From the NCBI RefSeq assembly GCF_029379315.1, contig NZ_JAQYWQ010000018.1:1-64000 (forward strand): DNA of 64,000 bases. The letters run 5' to 3'. The notes beneath the pieces are model-generated. The model saw only the letters and a program-made list of their open reading frames with translations. It made no database searches and was not told the origin of the DNA. The position numbers and the translations under genes were made by a program. Below, piece by piece: positions 22,576-25,407 of this stretch. Each line of letters opens with the position of its first letter. The stretch's first letter is position 1. This DNA is from Nostoc sp. S13 (GTDB lineage: Bacteria > Cyanobacteriota > Cyanobacteriia > Cyanobacteriales > Nostocaceae).

Positions 22576-22699
22576 AGGAAGATAGAGGAATCGTAGCTTG
22601 CTTCCCGTAGGGTACACCTACAGTTGCCCATACCCTGGTTTTCAAGACCAGTTGCCGTCCATACTCTTCGAGAAGGCTTCGCCTACAGCGGCATCTTCC
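22576..22699 (-). tRNA. tRNA-Ser(UGA) interrupted by two small repeats
   Basis: Acceptor GGAAGAT with ATCTTCC, D-stem GCCG/CGGC, anticodon arm CTGGT-CTTGAAA-ACCAG (TGA) and a long variable arm. Extra DNA of about 24 bases sits in the D-loop (plus 22662-22685) and about 23 bases in the T-loop (plus 22594-22616). Both inserts are small dispersed repeats also seen elsewhere in the window. The stems are intact. Confidence 0.65.
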
Positions 22700-22705
22700 A
22701 TTCAA

Positions 22706-22781
22706 GGGTGCCTGACGGGACTTGAACCCGCTATGACTGGTTCCACAAACCAGCGCCTCAACCACTTTGGCTTCAGACACC
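22706..22781 (-). tRNA. tRNA-His(GUG)
   Basis: Acceptor GGTGTCT with AGGCACC, anticodon arm CTGGT-TTGTGGA-ACCAG (GTG), T-arm GCGGG-TTCAAGT-CCCGT. Confidence 0.85.
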
Positions 22782-22786
22782 ATCAG

Positions 22787-22860
22787 TGGAATCAATGGGA
22801 ATTGAACCCATAACCTCCTGCTTGCAAGGCAGGCGCTCTATCCATTTGAGCTATGACCCC
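22787..22860 (-). tRNA. tRNA-Ala(UGC)
   Basis: Acceptor GGGGTCA with TGATTCC, anticodon arm CCTGC-CTTGCAA-GGCAGG (TGC), T-arm ATGGG-TTCAATT-CCCAT. Confidence 0.88.
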
Positions 22861-22916
22861 ATCAAACAAGTTAAAAGTTAAAAGTTAAAAGTAAACACTT
22901 TTGACTTTTATTCAGG

Positions 22917-22990
22917 CGGGAGTGGTAGGACTTGAACCCACAACTTTCGAGGTAGAAGCTCGAAGCTCTATTCCATTGAGCTACACTCCC
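22917..22990 (-). tRNA. tRNA-Arg(UCU)
   Basis: Acceptor GGGAGTG with CACTCCC, anticodon arm TCGAG-CTTCTAC-CTCGA (TCT), T-arm with TTCAAGT, discriminator G. Confidence 0.88.
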
Positions 22991-22999
22991 AATATTTGG

Positions 23000-23072
23000 T
23001 AGTCCTGGCAGGAATTGAACCCGCAACATTCTTCTTGTAAGGAAGACACTCTACCAATTGAGCTACAGGACT
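23000..23072 (-). tRNA. tRNA-Val(UAC)
   Basis: Acceptor AGTCCTG with CAGGACT, anticodon arm TCTTC-CTTACAA-GAAGA (TAC), T-loop TTCAATT, discriminator A. Confidence 0.85.
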
Positions 23073-23076
23073 ACGC

Positions 23077-23191
23077 AAGTAGTGGAGGGACTTGTACCCC
23101 TACGGAGAAGCAAGCTACGCGCAGTATTCTCGAAGAGTACCCACGCACTGAGTATGGCGTACTCAGATGCTACTGACTACATCACACCCGC
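23077..23191 (-). tRNA. tRNA-Gly(GCC)-like with T-loop insertion and poor acceptor stem
   Basis: Anticodon arm TGAGT-ACGCCAT-ACTCA (GCC). The T-stem GTGGG/CCCTC is split by about 43 bases of dispersed-repeat DNA (plus 23097-23139, with TACTCTTCGAGAA and GTAGCTTGCTTCTCC). The acceptor GCGGGTG pairs badly with CACTACT. Probably non-functional unless processed in an unknown way. Confidence 0.5.
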
Positions 23192-23199
23192 AAGTTCAG

Positions 23200-23270
23200 A
23201 GCGGACGGCGAGATTTGAACTCGCACGAAGACGTTGGAAGCGTCTCATGCTGCCGTTACATCACACCCGC
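23200..23270 (-). tRNA. tRNA-Gly(UCC)
   Basis: Acceptor GCGGGTG with CGTCCGC (two G-T pairs), anticodon arm AGACG-CTTCCAA-CGTCT (TCC), T-arm GCGAG-TTCAAAT-CTCGC. Confidence 0.87.
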
Positions 23271-23278
23271 ATTAGTCA

Positions 23279-23351
23279 AGCTGGTAACAGGAATTGAACC
23301 TGCAACCTACTGATTACAAGTCAGTTGCTCTGCCAATTGAGCTATACCAGC
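23279..23351 (-). tRNA. tRNA-Thr(UGU)
   Basis: Acceptor GCTGGTA with TACCAGC, anticodon arm ACTGA-CTTGTAA-TCAGT (TGT), T-arm GCAGG-TTCAATT-CCTGT. Confidence 0.9.
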
Positions 23352-23362
23352 ACTAATTTTGG

Positions 23363-23435
23363 TGACGGGGGCAGGAATTGCACCTGCTGATGTGAGGCTT
23401 ATGAGACCTCCAAGCCACTCTTGCTTCATCCCCGC
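23363..23435 (-). tRNA. tRNA with CAU anticodon (Met or Ile2 type)
   Basis: Anticodon arm GAGGT-CTCATAA-GCCTC (CAT), T-loop TGCAATT, acceptor GCGGGGA with CCCCCGT (end pairs imperfect). Initiator, elongator and lysidine-modified Ile types cannot be separated by eye. Confidence 0.7.
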
Positions 23436-23446
23436 AAAATCACCAA

Positions 23447-23519
23447 TACCCCTGACTGGATTTGAACCAGCAACCTCTTCGTTCTAAGCGAAGCGCCTCT
23501 TCCGTTGGGCTACAAGGGC
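23447..23519 (-). tRNA. tRNA with Leu anticodon UAG but short variable arm
   Basis: A 73-base class I body: acceptor GCCCTTG with CAGGGGT, anticodon arm CTTCG-CTTAGAA-CGAAG (TAG), five-base variable region AGGTT, T-arm with TTCAAAT, discriminator A. Bacterial tRNA-Leu normally has a long variable arm. It shares the D-arm pattern AGCCCAA..GGAAGAGG with the tRNAs at 23887 and 23971. Confidence 0.7.
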
Positions 23520-23523
23520 AAAG

Positions 23524-23596
23524 TTTGAGTGGCAGGGATTGAACCTGCCACCTGGAGTTTCCGAAACTCCCGCGCTTCCAACTGCGCTACACCCAG
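23524..23596 (-). tRNA. tRNA-Pro(CGG)
   Basis: Acceptor CTGGGTG with CACTCAA (terminal pair mismatched), D-arm GCGCAGTTGGAAGCGC, anticodon arm GGAGT-TTCGGAA-ACTCC (CGG), T-arm GCAGG-TTCAATC-CCTGC. Confidence 0.8.
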
Positions 23597-23605
23597 ATAT
23601 TTTGG

Positions 23606-23680
23606 TATTCCCGACAGCATTTGAACCTGCAAAAAACTAGATCCTCGGTAAGTGTGCATCTTGCATTCCGCCACCAGAGC
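23606..23680 (-). pseudogene. Degenerate tRNA-Leu-like sequence
   Basis: The D-region TGGCGGAATGCAAGATG and T-region GCAGG-TTCAAAT-GCTGT are tRNA-Leu-like. The acceptor arms do not pair and no proper anticodon stem forms around CCGAGGA (GAG is the likely former anticodon). Confidence 0.45.
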
Positions 23681-24359: not shown

Positions 24360-24368
24360 ATAAAATAA

Positions 24369-24563
24369 TAGGACTTACGCAAAATATCTCACAAACTCTG
24401 ATTTCTCCATGTCGCGCCAGTTGCTACAACGGGGGTAACCCCCCTTCGGGTTCACCAGTCGCCTACGGCGGGAAACCCGCCTACAGCGCTGGATTCACCG
24501 CAACGCACTGGCTTCTCTGCGCCTGGAGTGGTTCGTTATTCCGTAACTTGTGCGTAAGTCCTA
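24369..24563. mobile_element. MITE-like inverted-repeat element inside the tRNA array
   Basis: Ends TAGGACTTACGCA and TGCGTAAGTCCTA are perfect 13-base inverted repeats bounding 195 bases between tRNA-Phe and tRNA-Arg. There is no reading frame inside. The interior contains dispersed repeats (CCAGTCGCCTACGGCGGG). The same ends bound the element at 48298-48380. Confidence 0.75.
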
Positions 24564-24580
24564 AATAAGAGATCATGTAA

Positions 24581-24655
24581 CGAGAGCGGAGGGATCTGAA
24601 CCCTCAAGTCTTCAGTTTCGTAGACTGAGATGTTATCCAGTTACACCACACTCTC
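24581..24655 (-). tRNA. tRNA-Arg(ACG)
   Basis: Acceptor GAGAGTG with CGCTCTC, anticodon arm TCAGT-CTACGAA-ACTGA (ACG), T-arm GAGGG-TTCAGAT-CCCTC. Confidence 0.88.
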
Positions 24656-24659
24656 AAAA

Positions 24660-24749
24660 CGGAGAGAACAGGATTTGAACCTGCGACGGATATTAACTAC
24701 CCGTTTCCTCTTAGCAGGAGGACGCTTTGGGCCACTCAGCCACCTCTCC
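24660..24749 (-). tRNA. tRNA-Ser(GCU), second copy
   Basis: Class II tRNA: acceptor GGAGAGG with TCTCTCC, anticodon arm TCCTC-CTGCTAA-GAGGA (GCT), long variable arm. It duplicates the decoding of the tRNA at 16566-16657. Confidence 0.9.
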
Positions 24750-24753
24750 ATAG

Positions 24754-24836
24754 TGGGTCGAGCAGGATTTGAACCTGCGTGCAAAAAAGAACAGTTTTAC
24801 AGACTGTCGCCTTCAGCCAGACTCGGCCACCGACCC
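24754..24836 (-). tRNA. tRNA-Tyr(GUA)
   Basis: Acceptor GGGTCGG with TCGACCC, anticodon arm ACAGT-CTGTAAA-ACTGT (GTA), long variable arm, T-arm GCAGG-TTCAAAT-CCTGC. Confidence 0.92.
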
Positions 24837-24843
24837 ATAATCA

Positions 24844-24915
24844 TTCCCTCGACGAGAATTGAACTCGCATCTGTGCTTTGAAAGAGCACTGACTTAACCA
24901 TTCGTCCACGAGGGC
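24844..24915 (-). tRNA. tRNA-Glu(UUC), array copy
   Basis: Acceptor GCCCTCG with CGAGGGA, anticodon arm GTGCT-CTTTCAA-AGCAC (TTC), T-arm GCGAG-TTCAATT-CTCGT. It duplicates the tRNA at 31874-31946. Confidence 0.87.
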
Positions 24916-24925
24916 ATAATTTATC

Positions 24926-24980
24926 GAATTTTAGATTTTAAATTTTAGATTTTGGATTAAATTTTTTAATCTAAAATTGT
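24926..24980. repeat. TTTAGATTTTGGATT-family repeat, copy 3
   Basis: AATTTTAGATTTTAAATTTT then AGATTTTGGATTAA, with a short inverted arm TTTTTTAATCTAAAATTG, between two tRNA genes of the array. Confidence 0.7.
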
Positions 24981-24985
24981 CTGAC

Positions 24986-25055
24986 ACAGGGACTAGGATT
25001 TGAACCCAGAACATCGGATTTGGAGTCACGAGGTGTTACCGTTACACCATCCCTG
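24986..25055 (-). tRNA. tRNA-Trp(CCA)-like, weak anticodon stem
   Basis: Acceptor CAGGGAT with GTCCCTG, T-loop TTCAAAT, loop CTCCAAA (CCA). The anticodon-stem flanks CGTGA and TCCGA form only two pairs, so activity is uncertain. Confidence 0.5.
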
Positions 25056-25062
25056 CATTTGG

Positions 25063-25135
25063 TAGCAGTGGCGGGATTTGCACCCGCATATACCAGGGTA
25101 TGAACCTGGGGCTTTGCTAATTAAGCTACGCTGCG
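25063..25135 (-). tRNA. tRNA-Met(CAU)
   Basis: Anticodon arm CCAGG-TTCATAC-CCTGG (CAT), T-arm GCGGG-TGCAAAT-CCCGC, acceptor CGCAGCG with CACTGCT including a C1-T72 mismatch, which is initiator-like. The three G-C pairs typical of initiators are absent. Confidence 0.75.
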
Positions 25136-25150
25136 ATACGATCGCACCAA

Positions 25151-25223
25151 AGGTCAGGGCGGGAATTGAACCCGCGCTAATCGGTTTTGCAGACCAATGC
25201 CTTACCAACTTGGCTACCTGACC
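25151..25223 (-). tRNA. tRNA-Cys(GCA)
   Basis: Acceptor GGTCAGG with CCTGACC, anticodon arm TTGGT-CTGCAAA-ACCGA (GCA), T-arm GCGGG-TTCAATT-CCCGC. Confidence 0.9.
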
Positions 25224-25229
25224 ATTTGG

Positions 25230-25303
25230 GAGTCCCGACGAGATTCGCACTCGCAATCTTCAGTTCGAGAAACTGACGGCTTAAACTATTCGCCTACAGG
25301 ACT
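25230..25303 (-). tRNA. tRNA-Glu(CUC)
   Basis: Acceptor AGTCCTG with CGGGACT, anticodon arm TCAGT-TTCTCGA-ACTGA (CTC), T-loop TGCGAAT. Confidence 0.8.
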
Positions 25304-25307
25304 GCAA

Positions 25308-25407
25308 CCAGGGTGACGGGATTTGTAGACGCAAAGCGGCTTCCCGCAGGATACCCGCAACATTTCCGCAGACAACGGAACGCTCTAGCCAGTTGAGCTA
25401 CACCCCG
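25308..25407 (-). tRNA. tRNA-Asp(GUC) interrupted in the T-loop, array member 31 (5'-most)
   Basis: Acceptor CGGGGTG with CACCCTG, D-arm AGCTCAACTGGCTAGAGC, anticodon arm TTCCG-TTGTCTG-CGGAA (GTC). The T-stem GCGGG/CCCGT is split by about 28 bases (plus 25325-25352) of the dispersed repeat GTAGACGCAAAGCGGCTTCC. Everything outside the insert is canonical. Confidence 0.7.

Follow-up and report, generated by a model that had tools for sequence, protein, structure and literature searches.

Small modular repeats in the T-loops of a Nostoc tRNA array, probably placed there by insertion at a short directional DNA site

The window analysed here, a 64,000-nucleotide stretch of a Nostoc sp. S13 contig (NZ_JAQYWQ010000018.1, positions 1 to 64,000), carries on its minus strand a tRNA array of the trn-operon or L-array type (22351..25406), in which a census that tolerates inserts makes 30 gene calls and to which arrays in relatives are syntenic. 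Four of its genes, all on the minus strand, are interrupted in the T-loop by short repeats: tRNA-Asp(GUC) (25309..25406), the first gene of the array, the remainder of which resembles its intact orthologues; tRNA-Leu(CAG) (23683..23803, ends approximate), degraded in its 5' part; tRNA-Gly(GCC) (23080..23191, ends approximate), with a degraded acceptor stem; and tRNA-Ser(UGA) (22577..22699), which has a further insert in the D-loop and has orthologues both with and without inserts. All four are missed by both ARAGORN and Rfam. An earlier note made from the sequence alone had placed 23-50 extra bases in these T-loops; the inserts are real, and their lengths on the minus strand are 27 (Asp), 48 (Leu-CAG), 44 (Gly-GCC) and 20 nt (Ser-TGA), the Ser figure hinging on whether the flanking TAC is counted. 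The near-identical entry point that it described is borne out, with all four inserts lying between T54 and C56, as are the right junctions, which read TAC followed by AAAT, AAGT or GATT, and the Ser D-loop insert, which is 23 nt long by direct reading. Its statement that the quoted repeats recur elsewhere in the window does not hold, as none is present outside these tRNA genes and the repeats are instead dispersed genome-wide; at up to three mismatches GTAGACGCAAAGCGGCTTCC matches the window twice and GTAGCTTGCTTCCCGTAGGG once, with chance means of 0.01 and 0.00 respectively.

Orthologous arrays supply empty sites for all five window inserts, with T-loops that match the filled ones save for T55. 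The Ser T-loop is occupied by element A (TAGCTTGCTTCCCGTAGGGT, 22594..22613, plus strand), which replaces the A opposite T55, has no other match in the window, and is absent from the same site in G018, G011, G003 and other genomes. Element D, in the Ser D-loop (TAGGCGAAGCCTTCTCGAAGAGT, 22663..22685, minus strand), converts TG[A]ATGG to TG[T...T]ATGG at a site that is filled also in G008 and G016 and empty in G011 and others. The Asp T-loop holds element B (TAGACGCAAAGCGGCTTCCCGCAGGAT, 25326..25352, plus strand); among the 20 arrays with an Asp call this site is empty in 15 and filled in five, by B in two and by A in three. The two longer inserts are nested. In Leu-CAG, element B (23703..23750, plus strand) has a 21-nt element (TTCGCGGAGCGTCCCCAAGGG, 23724..23744, plus strand) within its CCCG^AAGGG, a clean insertion between G and AA when the window is compared with G007 and G004, where B lacks the nested piece; G018 has an empty site. 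The Gly-GCC insert (23095..23138, plus strand) consists of element C with an A-like element inside it at TTC/GAA, with C only in G010 and an empty site in G009 and G006. Pairs of empty and filled T-loops give one rule, TTC to T[A...A]C, in which T55 is exchanged and not merely displaced. On the opposite strand the element reads TAG...T (TT... for element C) and GAA becomes G[T...T]A; at the D-loop and in an Arg anticodon stem of relatives TGAA becomes TG[T...T]A, which is the T-loop rule on the other strand. Hairpin modules of the form CCC-TNC-GGG and CGC-NNN-GCG are common to the elements, and one element stem varies on both sides, being mostly CCC/GGG and CTC/GAG in Gly (by eye).

Recurrence was assessed by a census in which 308 ARAGORN-called reference genes were aligned, with tolerance for inserts, to 21 same-genus arrays, giving 547 gene calls. 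A manual tally gives 43 fillings of the same T-loop point, spread over 12 tRNA species (Asp, Ser-TGA, Gly-GCC, Gly-TCC, Leu-CAG, Leu-CAA, Tyr, Asn, Gln-TTG, Cys, His and Pro) and 18 of the 21 arrays, with no T-loop filling found by the census in G009, G011 or G021; it includes the Pro gene of G007, overlooked by the aligner and treated as spacer in the count of GAA sites given below. A stricter regular expression, which misses nested and altered copies, returns 33 fillings in 17 arrays with net lengths of 19 (16 cases), 26 (11), 23 (4), 43 (1) and 22 nt (1). Nested copies occur in relatives too, in Tyr and Cys. Away from the T-loop, inserts are present in the Ser D-loop in three of the 21 arrays, in the Arg-ACG anticodon stem in three (element A), and in the Phe-GAA anticodon loop in two (a related element), and the earlier claim that no insert falls in a stem or anticodon arm is therefore right for the window and wrong for its relatives. 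Sixteen secondary or distant arrays, scanned separately and kept outside the main counts, have four T-loop inserts (Met in G036, Trp in G037, and Leu-CAG and Gly-TCC in G025) and two Phe-anticodon inserts (G006 and G011) in five of the arrays, with no insert seen in the other 11; Phe of G037 has an additional long insert that is outside these counts. Across both sets, the repeat inserts in the Phe GAA anticodon lie between G34 and A35 (L034, L049, L062 and L065, in G003, G016, G006 and G011 respectively), making it a second GAA hot spot. A longer and different insert splits the anticodon loop of tRNA-Glu(CUC) in four arrays (L046, L042, L037 and L032, in G001, G006, G013 and G018).

Taking a distinct event as a combination of gene, site and element, the 21 arrays hold 16 distinct events, 13 in T-loops, three elsewhere in genes and none in spacers; the Glu-CTC anticodon inserts, an Asp D-arm insert of >100 nt in G001 and a Val alignment in G022 were left out as other sequences or artefacts. 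Outside the inserts these arrays contain 2324 GAA sites, with 463 in T-loops, 1220 elsewhere in genes and 641 in spacers, and the probability of finding at least 13 of 16 events in T-loops is 2.4e-7 and that of finding none of 16 in spacers is 0.006. For the longer word TYGAAC, 444 of the 480 sites in the arrays are T-loops, so that sequence preference alone can explain the pattern. A target logo built from 150 distinct contexts of elements A and B has Y at -2 in all 150 and R at -1 in 147, and of 21 further A copies with one or two mismatches, 19 have Y at -2 and 20 have R at -1. The suggestion that the repeat targets the conserved T-loop sequence is thus supported if the target is taken to be a short DNA site, YRAA and mostly YGAAC, the complement of T-loop GTTCR. 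Insert orientation tracks the GAA strand, being antisense to the tRNA in T-loops and sense in the D-loop, the Arg stem and the Phe anticodon; that it is set by this strand whatever the sense of the tRNA suggests a DNA target with polarity and argues against entry into RNA loops. Most copies outside tRNA genes are located within other Nostoc repeats, among them ACGAACCGCAGAGG, CAATTCATGAATTG and GACAAAGGAC, and likewise have a YRAA junction, the putative empty forms of these repeats being reconstructed from the repeats themselves.

Fourteen Nostoc genomes contain 88 exact copies, 23 of element A and 65 of element B. A reversed-pattern control gave none in the same 14 genomes, and no A or B copy was found in nine sampled genomes of other genera. 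Twenty-one of the exact copies are in main arrays (20 in T-loops and one in the Arg stem), one is in the remnant of a second-type array, three are in Y-RNA-like genes and 63 are elsewhere, the context having been inspected for all 67 outside the main arrays. Neither the 88 exact copies nor the 21 A copies with one or two mismatches include any in a housekeeping tRNA. If array and housekeeping genes (approximately 26 and 39) were hit alike, the chance of 21 of 21 falling in arrays would be 4e-9, a rough figure in that shared copies are not independent and the genome-wide search covered element types A and B. In a four-pair stem test of the exact copies outside arrays, five of 67 pass, corresponding to the three Y-RNA-like copies, L119, and L112 (by chance, in a repeat), with three of the 67 unparsable and read by eye; two of the 21 inexact copies pass (L362 and L370), both in repeats. 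L119, a Ser T-loop copy in G012, was considered as a housekeeping hit and rejected, as it adjoins a flank syntenic with second-type arrays and belongs to a degraded remnant.

The three Y-RNA-like loci (L111, L118 and L125) consist of tRNA-like genes in tandem whose anticodon arm includes a long domain, and element A is at the same T-loop point. Intact tandem members score in Rfam as tRNA above the cut-off in L118 and L125, and as YrlA below the cut-off in all three; in G004 (G004:C24) the element lies 236 bases from the start of a TROVE (Ro/Rsr) match, and no TROVE match is present in the window's own genome. Filling of these T-loops at the same point implies that the target is the T-arm sequence and not its use in translation. 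A scan for one filled-junction pattern over 84,980 species gave 84 matches in the 80 of 118 stretches listed. Among the matches listed, at least 16 pass a strict T-arm test, all from cyanobacteria (Nostoc, Calothrix, Chlorogloeopsis, Spirirestis, Leptolyngbya and others) and including the weak L269 with three Watson-Crick pairs, at least six more pass by eye, and none of the 14 from other phyla is T-arm-like. By eye, L241, L300 and L306 also belong to the tandem Y-RNA-like (YrlA-type) mimics of cyanobacteria whose T-loops hold this repeat.

We consider it probable that these are mobile repeats like the small dispersed repeats (SDR) of Nostoc, which insert into DNA at a preferred site and are tolerated by a redundant stress-type array. 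The inserts would be copies of a small family of modular, hairpin-forming and self-nesting elements of 20-27 nt, entering, presumably with the help of an enzyme, at a short directional DNA site, Y-R-A-A (mostly YGAAC), where the first A of AA is swapped for the element's own T...T ends. Because the tRNA T-loop (GTTCR; YGAAC on the other strand) is universally conserved and matches this target, it would be an excellent place of entry, and a cluster of 26-30 tRNA genes would serve as a landing strip. Hits may survive in the trn-operon-type array because it is redundant, with selection presumably removing the same hits from housekeeping tRNAs; the dispersed tRNA set of the window's genome includes intact Asp-GTC, Ser-TGA, Gly-GCC and Leu-CAG, that is, all four disrupted isoacceptors. 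Since a filled gene loses U55 and has its T-loop split by 20-48 nt, it would most likely give little or no working tRNA.

A string test found no single contiguous excision that restores T54-T55-C56 in any of the four genes, so that ordinary splicing cannot restore a canonical T-loop, and a tRNA intron spliced to a canonical tRNA was rejected on this ground. In scripted ARAGORN runs, recovery of the tRNA score on removal of the insert, a check raised in the earlier note, was obtained for Asp, which is found again, and not for Leu-CAG, Gly-GCC or Ser, even with a canonical T-loop, which points to further damage or, for Ser, to the D-loop insert. The Gly-GCC and Leu-CAG genes of the window are clearly degraded, and filled genes are more divergent than intact ones for both Leu-CAG (6.0% versus 1.8%) and Gly-GCC (14.3% versus 4.3%). 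The pooled divergence (filled 3.9%, intact 8.4%) is not used as evidence, the intact value being inflated by unlike paralogues (Cys, Tyr, Ser and Gly-TCC). Pure pseudogene decay was rejected as a general account, as some filled genes show no decay.

Several points weigh against the proposal of site-preferring mobile repeats that disable the genes they enter. In the logo, A at +1 was imposed by the search, and at least six copies with another right end were thus dropped; some contexts came from a pattern fixing ACC on the right, leaving -2 and -1 as the only free evidence, and copies at orthologous sites do not count as independent. The figure of 16 events comes from parsimony, and shared fillings could be one event spread by descent or recombination, and spacers were searched by module words only, with one 9-base word (CCCGAAGGG) seen inside another repeat in a window spacer. 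Nested and Phe-anticodon insertions are clean, with no visible base exchange. No enzyme is tied to the repeats, and Y1_Tnp matches (in 13 of 13 genomes, three of them in G000) gave no link to a mobiliser. Outside the T-loop, divergence of Asp is 1.2% for filled and 1.1% for intact genes with upstream DNA at 11%, and the filled Ser genes of G001, G002, G015, G020 and G022 (five of nine) differ at 14/840 positions versus 339/4246 upstream. Judged from these comparisons, recent insertion would explain the low divergence as well as retained function would. The other four filled Ser genes (G000, G014, G008 and G016) differ more, and those of G008 and G016 are decayed. Loss or strong impairment of the filled genes appears the better interpretation.

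One could suppose instead that insertion occurs anywhere and that loop inserts alone are retained since the tRNA still folds. Insertions within genes are indeed mostly in loops, and the predicted fold of filled Asp keeps the acceptor-side, D and anticodon helices of empty Asp; in the same predicted fold, however, each half of the T-stem pairs with the insert instead, spacers, where tolerance is greatest, account for none of the 16 events, and the YRAA junction is common to non-tRNA copies. Nor is it supported that loops are the only tolerated sites, an alternative offered in the earlier note, since the Arg-ACG anticodon stem and the Phe GAA anticodon itself are filled in 3/21 and 2/21 arrays. 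Loop tolerance as the sole cause was rejected on the spacer, stem and anticodon evidence, and we find this account scarcely credible. Gene conversion through similar T-arms, spreading a single insertion or a few from one tRNA gene to another, is very improbable: T-arm sequences are alike and the Ser loop base is identical in readable copies (that of G002 has Ns), but the one site is occupied by elements A, B and C in different genes and in different species, the loop base varies from gene to gene, and the D-loop, stem and anticodon inserts are without T-arm homology.

Entry at the RNA level, with repeat RNA inserting into exposed tRNA loops and returning to DNA by reverse transcription and recombination, would fit the presence of several structured RNAs among the filled genes, and RNA intermediates are said to have been proposed for SDRs by Elhai et al.; it is nonetheless improbable given that antisense inserts in T-loops and sense inserts in the D-loop, Arg stem and Phe anticodon follow the GAA strand, and that copies outside arrays lie mostly in other repeats with the same junction. 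The insert-bearing tRNAs might alternatively function as T-loop-expanded tRNAs, or be processed, with their gene bodies under selection. Filled Asp genes and five of the nine filled Ser genes equal intact tRNAs in conservation next to upstream DNA that has diverged, and a conserved Ile-like gene whose T-loop is non-canonical persists in the array as well, yet T55 is lost, T54-T55-C56 is unrestored by any contiguous excision, no A or B copies are seen in housekeeping tRNAs and decayed filled genes exist, such that we regard retained function as unlikely. It is also unlikely that the self-nesting elements of about 20 nt prefer the T-arms of tRNAs and tRNA mimics while some filled genes serve as T-loop-expanded tRNAs of the stress array; were both to hold, the repeats would add variety to a reserve set of tRNAs and not simply inactivate genes.

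The array has several other features. Two exact copies of TGTAGTAT, 10 bp apart, are located at 25764..25781 (minus strand), approximately 360-375 nt upstream of tRNA-Asp, and the word is identical to that of the TrcR operator found at the trn promoter of Anabaena (PMC10272220). Ile-, Met- and Leu-GAG-like genes, recognised by eye in gaps of the array and lacking such inserts, are also missed by ARAGORN and Rfam. The tRNA-Ile(GAU)-like gene (22500-22570, minus strand), for which the census had no reference, has the T-loop GGCAGTA in place of TTCRA and is kept across arrays with about 2% divergence versus 13-16% in adjoining spacers. At 24983-25057 (minus strand) ARAGORN reports a two-base anticodon (cc), as it does in 18 of the 21 arrays; alignment finds this gene in 20 of 21, and it is odd but conserved, perhaps Trp-like. 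An element resembling a miniature inverted-repeat transposable element (MITE), with AGGACTTACGCA / TGCGTAAGTCCT ends, lies at 24367-24570, flanked by the array's Phe and Arg genes. Elsewhere in the window there is an Rfam group II intron match (51341-51417, minus strand, 49.4 bits) and, at about 16712-16780, a tandem heptad repeat (CATTGGG), of which several relatives have a shorter version.

The Anabaena sp. PCC 7120 trn operon, or L-array, is likewise a long tRNA array redundant to housekeeping tRNAs (PMC10272220; PMC9938897), and is described in the former as silent in standard culture, induced by translation-targeting antibiotics and present alongside 48 housekeeping tRNA genes. The TGTAGTAT word upstream of the array is a further feature in common (PMC10272220), whereas the repeat inserts within array genes are peculiar to the Nostoc array in this comparison. 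In the literature searched we found no report of repeats in tRNA T-loops, and the hot spot in the T-loop, the exchange of a base and the tRNA-mimic insertions are to that extent provisionally new. Dozens of natural insertion events by mobile elements that rank among the smallest are thereby available at a single defined base, complete with empty sites, a consensus and a base exchange, by which the movement of such tiny repeats becomes testable. Natural T-loop-expanded tRNA genes in a reserve operon likewise offer a test of how much T-loop damage is tolerable, and the inserts are one reason that tRNA finders undercount such arrays.

Among known repeats, cyanobacterial families of GTAG-type repetitive extragenic palindromes (REP) have been reported (PMC3733652), and elements A and B together with the left target base resemble them in usually reading GTAG at one end. 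The GTAG tag occurs in those contexts that have G as the target base (114 of 150), and this G is part of the target and not of the element; by eye, element A also lacks a palindrome anchored at GTAG, and no RAYT gene is linked to these repeats. Tyrosine recombinases also integrate at tRNA genes, and share with the repeats the use of T-loop DNA as a target; their elements restore the 3' part of the tRNA, whereas here the tRNA is split and one base is lost. The closest relatives would be the SDRs, which Elhai et al. reportedly described from Nostoc in 2008 as having this size class, hairpins, self-nesting and recent mobility. The elements are 20-27 nt long, dispersed and non-coding, with both filled and empty orthologous sites and nesting in their own copies. 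They differ from the SDRs so described in the YRAA target, in the prevalence of T-loops among array sites and in the exchange of one target base in most cases, and work like a site-preferring SDR-type repeat, the likeness being one of size, hairpins, nesting and mobility.

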